A stretch of DNA of 64,000 nt, from assembly GCA_945639195.1 (NCBI GenBank), contig CALZEE010000002.1:186001-250000 (forward strand), written 5' to 3'. This DNA is from an uncultured Ignatzschineria sp. (GTDB taxonomy: Bacteria > Pseudomonadota > Gammaproteobacteria > Cardiobacteriales > Wohlfahrtiimonadaceae). Position numbers and translations under genes: made by a program. The notes below the pieces were generated by a model that searched no databases, was not told the DNA's origin, and saw only the letters and a program-made list of their open reading frames with translations. This document shows, in pieces, positions 18,747-25,842 of this stretch. Position 1 is the first letter of the stretch. Every line of letters begins with the position of its first letter.

Positions 18747-19793
18747 ATGCTTAATCGTCGCCAATTTATTAAAACAGCCCTTACTGCGGCATTAATGACC
18801 CAGTTTCCTTGCATTGCCGTCGCTGATAAACCGCGGTTTTTGTATGAGAAGTTTGGAGATTTACCACTGCCAGAAGCGATTGAACGCGTATTAAGCACAG
18901 GTCCTGTGGCAGATGTCTTACTGCTATCACTCGTGCCCACAAAGCTGATAGGTCTGTCATCGTTAAAGCTGACAGAATCACAGAAGCAATTCCTGCCACT
19001 GATATTACAGAATCTACCGCAAACAGGGCGATTCGCCGGACGAGGCTCGACAGCATCGCTCGAAAATGTGATTGCGCTAAAACCCGATGTGATTGTTGAT
19101 ATTGGGAATGTTTCCCCATCTTATGTGAGCACCGCAGAGCGCATTAATGCCCAGACCAATATTCCCTATATCCTCATGAATGGTACACTCTCTGAAACGG
19201 CGACGCAGATCCGAACGCTCGGTGAAATGCTCGGGGTAAAAGATCATGCCGATGGCTTGGCAGATTACGCGGAGCGCGTATTAACCGCAACGCATAATAT
19301 TGCCCAAAAAAGTGGGGTAGAGAAACCGCTTAAAGTCTATTCTGCACGCGGGGCAGATGGGCTAGAAACAGGGCTAGCAGGTTCTATTCATACGGAAGTA
19401 TTAGAATGGGTTGGGGCAACAAATGCGGCGCAAGATGCCGGAGAAAACCTAATGACCCGTGTGTCGATGGAGCAACTGATGCTCTGGCAACCAGATGTCA
19501 TTATTACGTTAGATGAAAACTTCTATCAAGAGATCGGGAAGAATCCCCTCTGGCAACGGATTAAAGCAGTTCAGGAAGGGCGTATTTATAAAGCACCCAA
19601 ACTCCTCTTCGGCTGGTTAGATCAACCGCCCAGTATCAACCGACTTCTAGGGGCTTCATGGCTTTCACATGTGCTTTACCCAGAATTAATGCCGGCAGAG
19701 CAGTATACCAAAGCAGTTATCGAATATTACGCGCTCTTCTATCAGCACTATCTTTCAGAAGAAGCGTTGATTGCCATGACCACGGGAGCTTAG
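18747..19793 (+). CDS. periplasmic binding protein of a FecBCD-type metal/chelate ABC transporter
   Basis: This 348-residue cluster A-II (PF01497-type) substrate-binding protein delivers a metal complex or siderophore-like ligand to the inner-membrane permease. The N terminus MLNRRQFIKTALTAAL has a twin-arginine-like NRRQFIK followed by a hydrophobic stretch and AVA before Asp-Lys, so Tat export is plausible. There is no lipobox Cys. The typical LKPDVIVD and QPDVIITLDE halves and a connecting helix are seen. AAAGGAGAG precedes the ATG. It heads a five-gene set (permease, ATPase, methyltransferase, TonB receptor). Convergent modD points to molybdate, tungstate or their chelates, as in Haemophilus MolABC, but iron or nickel chelates cannot be excluded. 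Confidence 0.88.
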   Translation: MLNRRQFIKTALTAALMTQFPCIAVADKPRFLYEKFGDLPLPEAIERVLSTGPVADVLLLSLVPTKLIGLSSLKLTESQKQFLPLILQNLPQTGRFAGRGSTASLENVIALKPDVIVDIGNVSPSYVSTAERINAQTNIPYILMNGTLSETATQIRTLGEMLGVKDHADGLADYAERVLTATHNIAQKSGVEKPLKVYSARGADGLETGLAGSIHTEVLEWVGATNAAQDAGENLMTRVSMEQLMLWQPDVIITLDENFYQEIGKNPLWQRIKAVQEGRIYKAPKLLFGWLDQPPSINRLLGASWLSHVLYPELMPAEQYTKAVIEYYALFYQHYLSEEALIAMTTGA

Positions 19794-19796
19794 TTA

Positions 19797-20777
19797 ATGC
19801 GTCTTTGGTTACCCCCCATTTTTCTATTAGGCATGCTATTTTTTGCCATTTCAGTTGGACAATATGCGATTCCTTTAGGGGAATTACTACAATCAATTGT
19901 TAGCCTAATTACGGGAAAACCGTTAACAGATGCGGAATTTATCATCTGGAATATTCGCTTTCCGCGTATCTTAACGGCACTTTTGGTGGGCGCCGCATTA
20001 GCAATCTCTGGGGCGACTTATCAGGGAATGTTCCGTAATCCTTTAGTATCGCCGGATATCTTAGGTGTTTCAGCAGGTTCTGGTCTTGGTGCAGTTGTCG
20101 CGATCTATTTTGATTTACCGATCTTAGGGATTCAGCTTTTAGCCTTTCTCTTTGGGCTTGCCACTGTGGGAATTGTTTATCTTGTCTCGCAATTAGTACG
20201 GCGATTAGATCCTATCTTAGCGCTTGTTCTTGCCGGCATTGCGATCTCAGCGCTCCTTGGCGCCGGCATTTCACTCATTAAACTCCTGTCTGATCCTTAT
20301 AGTCAGCTCACGATGATCACTTTTTGGTTGATGGGGTCATTAACTATGGCAACGATGAGTGATCTTTACGTGGTAGGACCGATCTTTATGATCGGAATGA
20401 TTCCACTCATACTTCTTCGCTGGCGGATGAATCTATTGAGCCTTGATGATGAAGAAGCGCTTGCGCTCGGCGTGAATATAAAATTACTGCGTTTAATCTT
20501 TATTATCTCCGCCACAATGATGACCTCGGCAGCGGTCTCTATTACCGGCATTATTGGTTGGATAGGGTTGGTGATCCCACATATCGCAAGGCTTCTTGTG
20601 GGACCCGATTTCCGTAAACTCCTGCCGACATCGCTCTTTATCGGTGCAGGCTTTTTGATTCTCACGGATACCGTTGCTCGCACGTTCTTTCCCATTGAAA
20701 TCCCCTTAAGCATCCTCACAGCCTTTATCGGTGCGCCATTTTTTATTGGCTTATTAATTAAAGGGGGACGCCGATGA
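19797..20777 (+). CDS. FecCD-family ABC transporter permease
   Basis: This 326-residue inner-membrane permease of the BtuC/FecCD family has about nine to ten hydrophobic helices. Family signatures include IRFPRILTALLVGAALAISG, then MFRNPLVSPDILGVSAGSGLGA and GWIGLVIPHIARLLVGPDFR, ending PFFIGLLIK. It starts three bases after the binding-protein stop, and its stop overlaps the ATPase start (ATGA), so the three are co-translated. It forms the channel that imports the ligand captured by the upstream protein. Confidence 0.94.
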   Translation: MRLWLPPIFLLGMLFFAISVGQYAIPLGELLQSIVSLITGKPLTDAEFIIWNIRFPRILTALLVGAALAISGATYQGMFRNPLVSPDILGVSAGSGLGAVVAIYFDLPILGIQLLAFLFGLATVGIVYLVSQLVRRLDPILALVLAGIAISALLGAGISLIKLLSDPYSQLTMITFWLMGSLTMATMSDLYVVGPIFMIGMIPLILLRWRMNLLSLDDEEALALGVNIKLLRLIFIISATMMTSAAVSITGIIGWIGLVIPHIARLLVGPDFRKLLPTSLFIGAGFLILTDTVARTFFPIEIPLSILTAFIGAPFFIGLLIKGGRR

Positions 20778-21526
20778 ATGTGATTGAACTACAGAATCTC
20801 TCTATTGGTTATGGTAAGAAATCGATTGCTTTCGGGCTGAATCTCACCTTTAAATCGGGGGAGATTGTAACGCTGCTTGGCGCCAATGGTTGTGGGAAAA
20901 CAACACTATTAAAGACCATCTTAGGGCTACTTAAAAAGCAAGCAGGCGAGATAATGATTGCCGGAAAACCGCAAAAAGCGTGGTCTCGTAAAACCTTATC
21001 GCAATTAATGGGATATGTCCCTCAAGCGCAAAACTACCACTTTCCCTTTTCCGTAGAAGAGATCATTCTCATGGGGCGAACGGCTTACCTTAATTGGGCC
21101 AGTAGCCCAAAAGCGAGCGATTTAGCCTTGGTAGATCGTGTTATTGAGCAATTAGAAATCACGTATTTAAAGGGGAAACTCTACCCAGAATTAAGTGGCG
21201 GAGAACGTCAGTTAGTGCTCATTGCTCGGGCGATTATCGGCAATCCCGAGGTATTAATTATGGATGAACCCACCGCAAGCTTGGATTATGGCAATCAGCT
21301 CCGTGTGCTTGAGCAAATCGAGCGTCTCAAAAAGGCCGGCATGACAATTCTGATGACAACGCATCAACCAGAACATGCCCTCAAAATCGCAGATCGGCTC
21401 ATCATGCTACATCAAGGCGCTATCCTTGCCGATGGTGATGCGAAACAGGTATTAACCCCGAAAAATTTAGCCACGATTTATCGCTTAACAGAAGCAATCG
21501 TTGAAAAAAACTTTAACCCATATTGA
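20774..21526 (+). CDS. ABC transporter ATP-binding protein (FecE/BtuD type)
   Basis: This 250-residue ATPase energises the FecCD permease. Walker A is GANGCGKTT, the Q-loop region is YVPQAQNYHF, the signature is LSGGERQLVL, Walker B is VLIMDEPTASLD and the switch His is in MTTHQPEH. All catalytic features are present. It overlaps the permease stop by four bases. The cargo is the same unknown metal or chelate as for the rest of the operon. Confidence 0.94.
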   Translation: MNVIELQNLSIGYGKKSIAFGLNLTFKSGEIVTLLGANGCGKTTLLKTILGLLKKQAGEIMIAGKPQKAWSRKTLSQLMGYVPQAQNYHFPFSVEEIILMGRTAYLNWASSPKASDLALVDRVIEQLEITYLKGKLYPELSGGERQLVLIARAIIGNPEVLIMDEPTASLDYGNQLRVLEQIERLKKAGMTILMTTHQPEHALKIADRLIMLHQGAILADGDAKQVLTPKNLATIYRLTEAIVEKNFNPY

Positions 21527-21586
21527 TCGCTATTTAATCACGATTTTGATTTTCATCTTTCAAAAGACCATGGAGACCTATCAGTA

Positions 21587-22447
21587 ATGACCACGAAGAT
21601 ACGAGGTTCTGCTCATCAGGCAGAATCAATCCCCTTAAAATCAATCTTTGATATTGATTTTGCAACGCTCTATAAAAGCCACGCAGCGGAATCTATTCGC
21701 CAACCGAAAACCCCAGAAGATTGGGATGAGCGCGCAGATCGCATGCGCAGCGGATCTGGGTGTACAAAAGAGGGCTATATCGATGCATTTTTATCACGCA
21801 TGGATCTTAATGCCGGCGATACATTGCTCGATGTAGGTTGCGGTGGCGGCACAGTCTGTCTTGCGGCAGCACCTTATGTGCAAAAAGTTATTGGCTTTGA
21901 TTACAGCCCCAAAATGTTAGAAGTCCTGCAAGAGCGCGCGGATGAGCTCAATATTTCTAATTACCAAACGATTTTAAAGTCGTGGAATGATGATTGGCAT
22001 GATGTGCCTGAATGCGATATTTGCGTCTCTTCACGCTCCTCGATGGTGGAAGATCTTGAAGATGCCTTGGCAAAGCTCAATAGCAAAGCCCGTAAGGCGG
22101 TCTATATGACCATGACGGTAGAAAAAGACTTTATTAACCGTGAAGTGCTACAAGCGATCGGTAGAGATAGCGTTGGATTTCCTACATATATCTACGCCGT
22201 TAATATGCTCTATCAGCAAGGATACCGCGTATCAGTGGACTTTATTGAAACCAATCATCAAATCTCAACGCGCACCATTACGAATGTTGAGGAATTTATT
22301 ACAGCCGTTGAATGGTCGATCGGCACCTTGAATGAGACCGAAAGATCCGAGCTCAAAGCCTATTATGACGCTCACTCCAATGAGATCCCCAAGGTCTATT
22401 CAGACACAAGGGCTTGGGCATTTTTAAGCTGGAAAACAGCACGCTAA
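21587..22447 (+). CDS. class I SAM-dependent methyltransferase of the metal-uptake locus
   Basis: This 286-residue Rossmann-fold methyltransferase has the SAM-binding motif LLDVGCGGGTV near residues 82-92, an acidic motif II in IGFDYSPKML, and CDICVSSRSSM where motif IV is expected. It follows the ATPase gene by 60 bases and precedes the TonB receptor gene by 190. Similar methyltransferases are often found beside TonB-linked metal-uptake genes, but their substrate is not established. Modification or release of a metallophore is an inference. No metallophore synthesis gene is seen in the window. Confidence 0.82.
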   Translation: MTTKIRGSAHQAESIPLKSIFDIDFATLYKSHAAESIRQPKTPEDWDERADRMRSGSGCTKEGYIDAFLSRMDLNAGDTLLDVGCGGGTVCLAAAPYVQKVIGFDYSPKMLEVLQERADELNISNYQTILKSWNDDWHDVPECDICVSSRSSMVEDLEDALAKLNSKARKAVYMTMTVEKDFINREVLQAIGRDSVGFPTYIYAVNMLYQQGYRVSVDFIETNHQISTRTITNVEEFITAVEWSIGTLNETERSELKAYYDAHSNEIPKVYSDTRAWAFLSWKTAR

Positions 22448-22637
22448 TGGCGGCGTTAAGGTCGTTTAATCGCCATACTTAATTTTCACCCTAATGAGCA
22501 ATCAGGGATTGATACTCACTAATATCGGCATTCATGCCTGTTTTATTTGATTTACACCAACCTTCTATCGCACCGATTGGCAGCCTCATCACGCTATGCG
22601 CGTTAGAACTTTGATTTTTTATTGATAGGACGTTTTT

Positions 22638-24845
22638 ATGACTAAACACCCTTTATTCAGCGCATGCAAGCTCTCTAAACTGAGCATTGCGATGATGTTT
22701 GCGCTCACACCAGTGCTTGCCACTGCCGATAACTTAGATAGTATCATGGATGATGCGGAAGATTCAGCCCCAAAGGCGCACACAAGTAAAGCCAATAGTA
22801 ATCTTTTTACCCTTGGTACCGTCCTTGTAAAAGGCACCTCAGAAACGGATCTCGTTCAGACCTCAGATTACTTTGAAACGTATATTGATAAGGAGACGAT
22901 TGATCTTTTTGAAGCAGAAGATGTGGGTCAAGCATTGGCATTTACGCCGGGCGTATTTTATGACAACCCAATTGGAGGCGCAAAACAGCGTTCTGCAAAC
23001 CGTTTTGAACCGGGTATTTCAGTTCGAGGCTACGGCTTACGCTATGTACCAGTATTTGTTGATGGTATTCCCGTCTATATTCCTTATGATGGTTACTCAG
23101 ATTTAAGCCGTTTTTCAACAGCGGATATCTCCTCGATTGAAGTCGCTAAGGGCTACAGCTCAGTGATGTATGGTCATAATACAATGGGCGGGGCCATTAA
23201 TATTGTGACGATGAAGCCTCGCTCAGAGTTTGATTTCTCCGGGGTTGTAGGAATGGGAGAGGGCGGAACACATCAATTGAGTGCTAACGTCGGAACGCTT
23301 CAAGAAAAATGGTATGCAGAAGCATCCGTTTCTGAGCGTGATCGTCGTTATACGAAGCTTGCTGAAAACTATGTTGGCAAAGATGCTTTTAAAAATAATG
23401 TCGATTCAGATAAATATCGTTATCACACTAAAGATCGACGCGTGGGTTTAAAAGTGGGCTGGACACCAACAGCAACCGATGAGTATGTATTAAGTTACTC
23501 TAAGCAGACAGCGAAAAAAGAGCCCGGAAGCGTACACGACAGTGGTTTTGTTCCTACCAATTGGGTATGGCCAGAATGGGATCGTGAGACATTTTCATTT
23601 GTCTCTAATACTTGGCTCTTTGATGACAAGGTTTATGTAAAACCACGTATTTATTACGATAGATTTAAGAATACTCTTTTAAACTTTAAACCGGGCGAAA
23701 CAAGTAAATACGATGACAAAGCCTTTGGGGCTTCCGTAGAAATTGGTACAACCGCTATCGATAATCATCTCTTAAAAATGATGTTAAGCTATAAAGACGA
23801 GAGTCATAAAGGTATAGATGATGGTTTTGATAAGCAGAAGAATCCAATTCATTCAGAAACAAAATCGACGCAAAAATTCTATTCAATCGCACTAGAAGAT
23901 AACATTACAATCAATGAGCAATTTGAAGCCCAATTAGGGGTGATTTATACCAAGCGTACCGCAGATGCTGGAGAACTTGGAAAAAATACTCAGCATTTGA
24001 TTGGTCAATATCCTGGTGCGAGCTCAATGCTTGCGCCAAGTATTGATAGTACAGATTATCAGGCGGCACTTTTCTATAAGCCCAATGATACGGATATCTT
24101 CCGTTTTGCGATCGGTAAAAAAACACGCTTCCCAAGCTTTAAAGAGCTCTATTCAAACTTTGGGGATAATGAGAAAAAATGCCCAGAGGGTTCAACCGGC
24201 TGTATCCCAGGTCAAAACTATCCTTCAATTGCCTTGCAAAATCCTGGCTTAAAACCAGAAAGCGCAACCAATATTGAATTGGGTTATACAGGCATGCCAA
24301 TGACGGGATTAAGTCTTGATGCGGCGGTTTTTTATAGTCAGTCTAAAAATACAATTGCAAGAAGCGATGATAATGGCGATACCTTCCCAGGTTTCATAAC
24401 ATCTCATAACTACAATATTTCTAATAAAGTAGAGCGCAAAGGTATTGAGCTAGGGGTTAATTATGATGTAAACCAATACCTCAAAGTCGGTGGGGGTTAC
24501 ACTTATCTGCATGTAAAACGTAAAGATGATTCTGCGCTTAAGATGACTGATATTCCTAAGCAATTTGGCTATGCATATGCAACTGTAAAGCCGCTTGATT
24601 GGTTAGAGGTTACACCTTCTGTTACTGCAAGAAGTAGTAGTTATGCTAATGAGAAAGGAAACAGTAGAAATGCGGGTTACGCTGTATACAATCTTAAGTT
24701 CTCAGCAAAGCCACCACAATGGCAAGGCGTGACATTTAATGCCGGTGTTGAAAACGTCTTTAATAAAAATAGTGCTATGCGTAACGCAGTTTACCCATCA
24801 GCAGGGCGATACCTCTATATGAATATGCGTTATGATTTCTATTAG
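22638..24845 (+). CDS. TonB-dependent outer-membrane receptor
   Basis: This is a 735-residue outer-membrane receptor. A signal peptide (hydrophobic MMFALTPVLATA) is followed by a linker with a TonB-box-like LGTVLVKG. The plug domain carries QALAFTPGVFYDNP, then ISVRGYG, VDGIPVYIPYDG and VAKGYSSVMYGHNTMGGAINI. The rest is a 22-strand-type barrel ending RYLYMNMRYDFY with the expected terminal aromatic residue. It is probably the entry route for the ligand imported by the upstream ABC transporter. A strong terminator follows. Two Cys residues in an extracellular-type loop (EKKCPEGSTGCIPG) may form a disulphide near the ligand site. Confidence 0.94.
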   Translation: MTKHPLFSACKLSKLSIAMMFALTPVLATADNLDSIMDDAEDSAPKAHTSKANSNLFTLGTVLVKGTSETDLVQTSDYFETYIDKETIDLFEAEDVGQALAFTPGVFYDNPIGGAKQRSANRFEPGISVRGYGLRYVPVFVDGIPVYIPYDGYSDLSRFSTADISSIEVAKGYSSVMYGHNTMGGAINIVTMKPRSEFDFSGVVGMGEGGTHQLSANVGTLQEKWYAEASVSERDRRYTKLAENYVGKDAFKNNVDSDKYRYHTKDRRVGLKVGWTPTATDEYVLSYSKQTAKKEPGSVHDSGFVPTNWVWPEWDRETFSFVSNTWLFDDKVYVKPRIYYDRFKNTLLNFKPGETSKYDDKAFGASVEIGTTAIDNHLLKMMLSYKDESHKGIDDGFDKQKNPIHSETKSTQKFYSIALEDNITINEQFEAQLGVIYTKRTADAGELGKNTQHLIGQYPGASSMLAPSIDSTDYQAALFYKPNDTDIFRFAIGKKTRFPSFKELYSNFGDNEKKCPEGSTGCIPGQNYPSIALQNPGLKPESATNIELGYTGMPMTGLSLDAAVFYSQSKNTIARSDDNGDTFPGFITSHNYNISNKVERKGIELGVNYDVNQYLKVGGGYTYLHVKRKDDSALKMTDIPKQFGYAYATVKPLDWLEVTPSVTARSSSYANEKGNSRNAGYAVYNLKFSAKPPQWQGVTFNAGVENVFNKNSAMRNAVYPSAGRYLYMNMRYDFY

Positions 24846-24914
24846 AACTCACAGGTCATATTGTCGATTAATGCAATAGCCTTTTTATAGCGTTATTATG
24901 CTACCAATAAGTAC

Positions 24915-24944
24915 AAAAAGGATCTCGTTGGAGATCCTTTTTTT
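24915..24944. terminator. terminator between TonB receptor and modD
   Basis: AAAAAGGATCTC (24915-24926), loop GTTG, then GAGATCCTTTTTTT (24931-24944). It is strong on the plus strand and can also act for the convergent modD gene. Confidence 0.85.
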
Positions 24945-24993
24945 CATCTCCGCATTCCTGAATTGATGAATCTACTCAGTACAAAACCAAAAG

Positions 24994-25842
24994 TTAGTCT
25001 TCAATCGGCGTAATATCCACCTTCACATCCAGCGCTTTTGCATAATAGGGGGCGGTGGTCACAATGCCATTGACGCCCGTTGTCACAAATTCGGCAATAT
25101 TGCCGGGATTAATCCCGCCGGCAGCTAAGATGCGAATGCTGGGGAATTGCGCCTTTAATGCCGGAACGGCTACTCTAAGATCCGCCACGCTGACTTTATC
25201 AAATTGAATAATTTCCGCACCCATTGCCACAAAACGTAAGGCTTCTTCTAAGTTATCCGCTTCAATGACAATGCGCTTCTCACAAGCAAGGTGTTTAATC
25301 TCGGCGATTTTTGCACCAAGCGCCGCATCATCTTTAAAAAATGCGCGGTGTTGTTTAAAGATCAAAATCGTTTCAGAGAGCCCCAAGCGATGGGGCATAG
25401 CACCACCTGCCATAATGCCGGCAATGGCTAAAGATTTTGTCCCTGGGATATTTTTGCGCGTCGTTAAAAGTGCAATTTTCTCGGGCGCGTTAGCCCAGAC
25501 AACGGCCATTTTATGGGTGGTGGAAGCAATGCCGGAGCTATAGTCGAGAATATTTTGCGCGATTTTCCAAACGGTATGAATCGCTTCTGCAGAGCCGGTG
25601 CCACTGATTAATAGATCATTCGGGGCGATTTTTGTGCCTGAGGATTTCATCTCAAGGCAGGTGATCCCCAATTGTTGAAACATCTTTAAAACCACTTCTG
25701 TTCCACAAACAACGCCGGCTTCGCGGGTTCGGTATTCTATCTTTGTCGGTTGCGTTTGAATACCAAGGAGCGAGCAGGTGAGATCAATATAGGGCATATC
25801 TTCGCTAATCAAGCGTTCAATATCATCAGTTTTAATAAACAT
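24994..25842 (-). CDS. modD: ModD, nicotinate-nucleotide-pyrophosphorylase-like protein
   Basis: This 282-residue protein of the quinolinate phosphoribosyltransferase (NadC) fold, ModD subgroup, is often encoded with molybdenum transport genes. The NadC-like core is visible: TTRKNIPGTKSLAIAGIMAGGAMPHRLGLSE corresponds to the NadC R-K-T-x-PG-x-R...GG..HR region. The C-terminal barrel has ILAAGGINPGNIAEF and GVNGIVTTAPYY. Its exact reaction is not established. It is convergent with the TonB/ABC locus, which supports molybdate or tungstate as that locus's cargo. AGGAGCT lies before the ATG. Confidence 0.85.
   Translation of the reverse strand: MFIKTDDIERLISEDMPYIDLTCSLLGIQTQPTKIEYRTREAGVVCGTEVVLKMFQQLGITCLEMKSSGTKIAPNDLLISGTGSAEAIHTVWKIAQNILDYSSGIASTTHKMAVVWANAPEKIALLTTRKNIPGTKSLAIAGIMAGGAMPHRLGLSETILIFKQHRAFFKDDAALGAKIAEIKHLACEKRIVIEADNLEEALRFVAMGAEIIQFDKVSVADLRVAVPALKAQFPSIRILAAGGINPGNIAEFVTTGVNGIVTTAPYYAKALDVKVDITPIED

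Follow-up and report, generated by a model that had tools for sequence, protein, structure and literature searches.

TonB-dependent uptake of metallophores is known for siderophores, for cobalamin through BtuB, and for metal-pseudopaline through CntO. Molybdate is generally held to reach the periplasm by porin diffusion. The MolABC system of Haemophilus influenzae (HI1470-1472) is a type II ATP-binding cassette (ABC) importer of the FecCD class that carries a molybdenum (Mo) or tungsten (W) oxyanion. The main text of PMC4031551 describes MolBC-A as low affinity, does not contain the word "TonB", and ascribes the molybdate-dependent repression of a molA-type operon to an unknown factor.

Here we describe a locus at positions 18747-25842 of a 64,000-nucleotide stretch, referred to as the window as a whole, from an Ignatzschineria sp. 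with a genome of 2.45 Mb. The locus consists, in order, of genes for a periplasmic binding protein, a FecCD permease, an ATPase, a methyltransferase, and a TonB receptor, followed by a convergent modD gene. It probably represents a TonB-dependent Mo/W acquisition system, with ModD and the methyltransferase belonging to the same Mo-shortage response. The basis is gene order, protein families, operators of the ModE type in related bacteria, the joint occurrence of modD and the methyltransferase gene across genomes, and Mo-gene neighbours, the last three of which support an earlier sequence-only reading of the locus as Mo/W uptake with a TonB receptor. From these observations we infer the identity of the substrate, its chelation, and the reactions of both enzymes.

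Organization of the locus

All six genes assigned to the locus by that reading are intact open reading frames (ORFs), each matching its expected family. The binding protein gene (18747..19793, + strand) is separated by 3 bp from the gene of the FecCD/BtuC-type permease (19797..20777, +; Pfam FecCD, 300 bits), which overlaps by 4 bp with the ABC ATPase gene (20774..21526, +; Pfam ABC_tran). The gene of the class I S-adenosylmethionine (SAM) methyltransferase (21587..22447, +) starts 60 bp past the ATPase gene, and that of the TonB-dependent outer-membrane receptor (22638..24845, +) starts 190 bp past the methyltransferase gene. The modD gene (24994..25842, − strand) encodes a quinolinate-phosphoribosyltransferase-like enzyme. 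A hairpin with T/A tails, read in the sequence at the receptor/modD boundary (24915..24944, no strand assigned), is a probable bidirectional terminator for the two genes. No riboswitch was found in the whole window at the Rfam gathering thresholds, at which the only match is a tRNA outside the locus.

The run of binding protein, permease, ATPase, and methyltransferase genes also occurs in Wohlfahrtiimonas, Gilliamella, and Pasteurellaceae, where a receptor often adjoins it, and this recurrence shows that the gene order is not random. The four genes are contiguous in 21 of the 22 gammaproteobacterial loci having both the methyltransferase and a FecCD-type permease, the remaining one (L238) being rearranged, and 15 of the 22 have a receptor no more than 4.5 kb away.

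ModE-type operators in relatives

ModE-type sites were scanned with the pattern CGTTATAT-N8-ATATAACG (score out of 16), the N8 spacing being that of the Escherichia coli ModE consensus quoted in PMC545781. In 39 loci (815,819 bp), 19 sites scoring at least 14/16 are found versus 1.3 expected, and 34 scoring at least 13/16 versus 5.7 expected. In Gammaproteobacteria other than Ignatzschineria, a site of at least 13/16 is present at 46 of 83 target starts, which include near-identical genomes (e.g., L063/L064, L099/L100, and L134/L135) and are not fully independent, versus 14 of 541 controls. Genes with a same-strand neighbour at most 60 bp upstream are skipped in this test, and ten of the 14 control matches are, by inspection, divergent neighbours on the site of a target. 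Sites are found at the starts of the binding protein gene (12/19), modA (13/18), the receptor gene (4/5), and the gene of the molbindin Mop (2/2), and at 0/2 molA-type starts. When a small membrane-protein gene leading into the receptor is included (6/6 starts), 10 of 11 receptor units have a site. A perfect 16/16 site lies 65 bp before the binding protein gene in Wohlfahrtiimonas larvae, and the corresponding site in Wohlfahrtiimonas populi scores 15/16. ModE presumably binds these predicted sites in the relatives.

Patterns for Fur and NikR, the ModE half-sites at spacing 7 or 9 or in inverted order, and a scrambled pattern were rejected, giving no enrichment comparable to that of ModE at N8. 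Small exceptions, all uncorrected, are found with the inverted order at the small membrane-protein gene (6.6e-5), modD (3.5e-3), and modA (0.012), with spacing 9 at modD (4.2e-3), with spacing 7 at modA (9.2e-3) and the receptor gene (0.031), with Fur at modA (0.028), and with the scrambled pattern at the methyltransferase gene (0.019). Neither Fur nor NikR gives a signal at the importer and receptor starts, and the Fur control that the sequence-only reading had named as an observation that would overturn it is thus not seen there.

Two further matches are recorded. In Photobacterium damselae, a lone modD and a divergent gene of a CobW-type GTPase share a 15/16 ModE-type site (L136:8502-10542). 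In the window, a 13/16 match at 1160-1183 has no gene start downstream and is probably due to chance.

Molybdenum-related neighbours

The importer or the methyltransferase adjoins Mo-related genes in several relatives. In a Pasteurellaceae locus (L255), modDCBA is followed by ATPase, permease, and binding protein genes and then, divergently, by the small gene and the receptor gene; two ModE-type sites are present. In Necropsobacter, the importer, methyltransferase, and receptor are followed by a Mop molbindin (two matched stretches) with its own ModE-type site. Vreelandella jeotgali has the genes of ModD, the methyltransferase, ModA, and ModB behind one ModE-type site, and genes of SelB, SelA, FdhE, and formate dehydrogenase lie a few genes past that run. 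In Bacillota, one locus (L173) encodes a molybdopterin oxidoreductase, a ferredoxin-like protein, NrfD, a TorD-like chaperone, an Fe-S protein, the methyltransferase, and the importer, and another, from a metagenome-assembled genome (MAG; L110), has FdhD followed by the methyltransferase and importer. None of six genes neighbouring moaA and modA in the Ignatzschineria genome itself encodes a Mo enzyme, no search having been aimed at such enzymes.

Binding protein and receptor

The binding protein matches Pfam Peripla_BP_2 (78.8 bits versus a cut-off of 27.5), and its N-terminal NRRQFIK resembles a Tat signal by eye. By sequence, the best match in the PDB is 4pag (1.6e-36), and MolA (3psa) is found only at 8.8e-12. 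The predicted structure (pLDDT, the predicted local distance difference test score, of 82.8) has a VIA Z of 31.2 to 4pag and 23.2 to MolA (293 aligned, root mean square deviation 3.7). The structural class also includes TM0189, YiuA, and CeuE. Since the Z values to MolA, to iron-bound YiuA, and to CeuE with Ni-His are similar, the ligand cannot be named from the modelled fold. Orthology with MolA (HI1472) was rejected, since 4pag is far closer and a true MolA ortholog (3psa, 1.9e-166) is encoded separately, near modABCD, in the same Necropsobacter genome that carries the importer. The binding protein shares the structural class of MolA without being its ortholog.

The receptor has plug (PF07715, 70.2 bits) and β-barrel (PF00593, 122.1 bits) domains. 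Its best NCBIfam matches are siderophore, haem, and B12 receptors, all under their cut-offs. By sequence, it has no close relative in the PDB; only the N-terminal region matches, best with BtuB (2.7e-8). In W. larvae, the receptor gene is split over two ORFs (L066:10232-12447), either by disruption or by a sequencing error.

The small gene heading the receptor units encodes a membrane protein of 148-171 residues with only weak sub-threshold matches, to ferric reductase, cytochrome b561, and DUF4405 domains. A ModE-type site of at least 14/16 is present at all eight of its starts. The receptor follows in six of the eight cases (including L095:13840-14313, L231:8885-9376, L099:10896-11390, and L247:4192-4665). 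In the other two (L244:6930-7406 and L245:8783-9259), which are excluded from the receptor-unit count, the small gene adjoins the methyltransferase gene with a 15/16 site between them, and no receptor comes after it.

Methyltransferase and ModD

The methyltransferase has class I methyltransferase domains, keeps the SAM motif DVGCGGG, and contains the motif CDICVSSRSS. Its model has a small-molecule methyltransferase fold, and its matches, of low TM-score, spread over a broad range of N- and S-methyltransferases of small molecules. Judging from profile searches, the family is sparsely distributed and is without a name in the libraries searched. Members are found in two of 369 evenly drawn Gammaproteobacteria, one being the genome of the window, in 11 of 18 genomes of its own family (Wohlfahrtiimonadaceae), and in 57 of 140 Pasteurellaceae. 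Several Ignatzschineria have the methyltransferase gene at the same chromosomal slot, where no importer is present. Two inverted copies on each of the small contigs of Pasteurella canis (L093 and L107) are probably assembly artefacts.

In Bacillota, the methyltransferase profile matches 59 of 398 genomes at E 1e-14. Among 20 stretches inspected, chiefly the best-scoring ones, a FecCD-type permease lies within 4.5 kb in six (L169, L171, L173, L174, L175, and L182); in L170, binding proteins adjoin the methyltransferase and the permease is 7 kb off. A distant methyltransferase in L178 has radical SAM proteins encoded a few genes upstream.

ModD of the window scores 239.2 bits with TIGR01334, ranked only as a hypothetical equivalog in NCBIfam, versus the curated cut-off of 178.85, and fails the NadC model TIGR00078 (154.8 bits versus 198.4). 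The only other TIGR01334 match in the genome (106.3 bits) is under the cut-off and is probably NadC. HMMER alignments with quinolinate phosphoribosyltransferases show the RK and HR residues and an aspartate of these enzymes conserved in ModD, which has lysine and phenylalanine in place of an arginine and a lysine that we take to be substrate contacts in them. This replacement suggests that the acceptor is altered. A second, diverged ModD (43%) adjoining the methyltransferase in an Ignatzschineria MAG (L071:9507-10367) has changes at conserved-core positions.

The two enzymes tend to occur in the same genomes. In the 18 genomes of the own family, the methyltransferase is found in 11, modD over the cut-off in 12, and both in 10 (Fisher 0.013). 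Of the 57 genomes searched, the 39 outside the family have no modD over the cut-off and no methyltransferase match better than 1.6e-7. Outside the own family, modD over the cut-off accompanies the methyltransferase in 12 of 16 other genomes, the rest being Testudinibacter, Mesocricetibacter, a Bacillota MAG, and G195. The 140 Pasteurellaceae contain the methyltransferase in 57 cases, modD in 29, and both in 28 (Fisher 1.5e-12, kinship ignored). Thus, in the own family and in Pasteurellaceae, modD nearly implies the methyltransferase, and the reverse is true in about half of the cases.

Points of conflict and alternative explanations

Several observations weigh against a Mo/W acquisition system in which both enzymes share. 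The importer, receptor, and modD of the window have no ModE-type site upstream (best 11/16 or lower), and ModE over the cut-off is found neither in the genome of the window (G000) nor in any of nine Ignatzschineria, whose importers also have no site. Sites in Ignatzschineria are present at 1 of 18 targets and 2 of 142 controls, as expected if ModE control was lost, which appears to be the case in this genus. ModE over the cut-off is encoded in two of the 21 genomes searched, a set without Pasteurellaceae, W. larvae, and W. populi, and both are Wohlfahrtiimonas with a site at the importer. In the relatives, only 5 of 20 methyltransferase starts and 2 of 9 modD starts have a site; several of these genes lie inside operons, and some misses are operon-internal genes or sites at 12/16. 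The modA gene of W. larvae has a 16/19 Fur-like match beside the ModE-like one, and the genome of the window already encodes the canonical ModABC.

The position of modD is a further difficulty. It lies within 4.5 kb of the methyltransferase in only 3 of the 22 loci, those of the window, Ignatzschineria ureiclastica, and Pasteurella bettyae, and elsewhere sits in modABCD or alone. Even in the own family, where I. ureiclastica and four Wohlfahrtiimonas have the full importer run, only the window and I. ureiclastica have an adjacent modD. The adjacent modD, from which the sequence-only reading had argued for Mo, is therefore the weakest part of that argument, and the absence of modD from orthologous loci, which it had set as a ground for refutation, is literally what most loci show. 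An E. coli control genome, searched for modD alone, also scores over the modD cut-off in the family search, though a blastn search with one Pasteurellaceae modD gave no match in E. coli genomes.

The methyltransferase is likewise encoded in many genomes without a FecCD-type importer nearby (Ignatzschineria cameli and its relatives, several Pasteurellaceae, and Testudinibacter), and hence is not tied to the cargo of the receptor. This persistence suggests that it probably acts not only on the imported species. It is possible, if not the likelier case, that the importer and receptor serve Mo/W, and that the convergent modD and the methyltransferase have their role in another part of Mo metabolism, for example in connection with ModABC or cofactor insertion, their closeness in the window being incidental. 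The frequent location of modD within modABCD and the presence of the methyltransferase in nearly all modD-bearing Pasteurellaceae agree with this explanation, while the contiguous four-gene run in all but one of the 22 loci and the single run of importer, methyltransferase, and modD in P. bettyae argue against it.

Remote methyltransferases of Bacillota (L176, L179, and L181) adjoin NikA/CntA-like binding proteins and Nik/Opp-type nickel importers, suggesting that members of the wider family may go with importers of metal chelates of any kind. In the methyltransferase tree, from which eight rows were left out (four duplicates, two fragments, and two copies on a small palindromic contig), L182 with its FecCD-type importer groups with two Nik-adjoining members. 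Together with the Ni-His-binding CeuE in the fold class and BtuB as the nearest sequence match of the receptor, these observations would fit uptake of a nickel or cobalt chelate, with the methyltransferase as a general metallophore enzyme and the Mo links secondary. We consider this very unlikely: NikR gives no signal, the relatives have ModE-type sites, urease is above the cut-off in only 2 of the 18 family genomes, the own genome not among them, and the methyltransferase of the window sits in another part of the tree that has good support, although the deep joins are unsure owing to long branches. A locus for uptake of iron siderophores or haem that adjoins an unrelated modD, with the methyltransferase handling the siderophore, is very unlikely in spite of the generic iron-type receptor and ABC families, since Fur sites are not enriched at the importer or receptor starts, the highest-scoring Fur match ahead of the importer of the window (12/19) is at the level of shuffled sequences (average 11.8, up to 15), and the relatives have ModE-type sites and Mo-gene neighbours.

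Proposed mechanism

Under Mo scarcity, the receptor of the Mo/W acquisition system proposed here would take up a species containing Mo or W, most probably a chelate, through the outer membrane, and the binding protein would pass it to the FecCD-type ABC importer. A TonB receptor under ModE control implies that the metal is actively scavenged through the outer membrane, probably in chelated form. The methyltransferase and ModD are predicted cytoplasmic enzymes of the Mo-shortage response, belonging to the same regulon in some relatives. The most likely target of both is the small ligand of the metal, from which they would release the metal or which they would synthesize or recycle; for the methyltransferase, a better fit would be a function in ligand synthesis or on a ligand that also serves metal delivered by ModABC. 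More speculatively, and rather unlikely at present, ModD and the methyltransferase may make or recycle a dedicated Mo/W chelator. A phosphoribosyltransferase-like reaction and a methylation would yield this small molecule, which the cell would secrete under Mo scarcity and recover, with the metal bound, via the ModE-controlled receptor and importer. Such a ModE-switched molybdophore cycle, if true, would account for the role of ModD.

No report of a ModE-controlled TonB receptor, or of a molybdophore or TonB-dependent Mo/W uptake, was found among titles and abstract beginnings in the open-access literature. The proposed system would widen the small set of metals taken up by energised outer-membrane receptors, and gives ModD and the methyltransferase family a common, testable setting. 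It also enlarges the ModE regulon predicted for Pasteurellaceae, which may extend to molA-type operons. In molABC-type operons near modABCD in this family, molA has a ModE-like site of 13/16 in two cases (L134:17-1103 and L258:8770-9879) and of 12/16, within the chance range, in two others (L135:429-1469 and L259:8104-9159). ModE could be the repression factor that PMC4031551 invokes for molA-type operons.

Comparison with known systems

The closest solved relative of the binding protein is 4pag of Sulfurospirillum deleyianum, the title of which names no function. The two share the segment W-D-x-PPS-x-x-R-x-LG-x-x-W, whereas their overall identity is only about 30% (29 to 31%). MolABC is of the same importer class, but four molABC stretches have no such receptor or methyltransferase (L134, L135, L258, and L259, two of which begin at the operon). 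ModABCD resembles the locus in including a ModD and, in relatives, in having ModE-type sites and clustering with its genes; it differs in its ABC class, and the receptor and methyltransferase are extra in the window. The combination of receptor, binding protein, and ABC importer is that of TonB-dependent metallophore uptake. The locus differs in that the sites in relatives are of the ModE type, not those of Fur or NikR, and in that the predicted metal is Mo or W.

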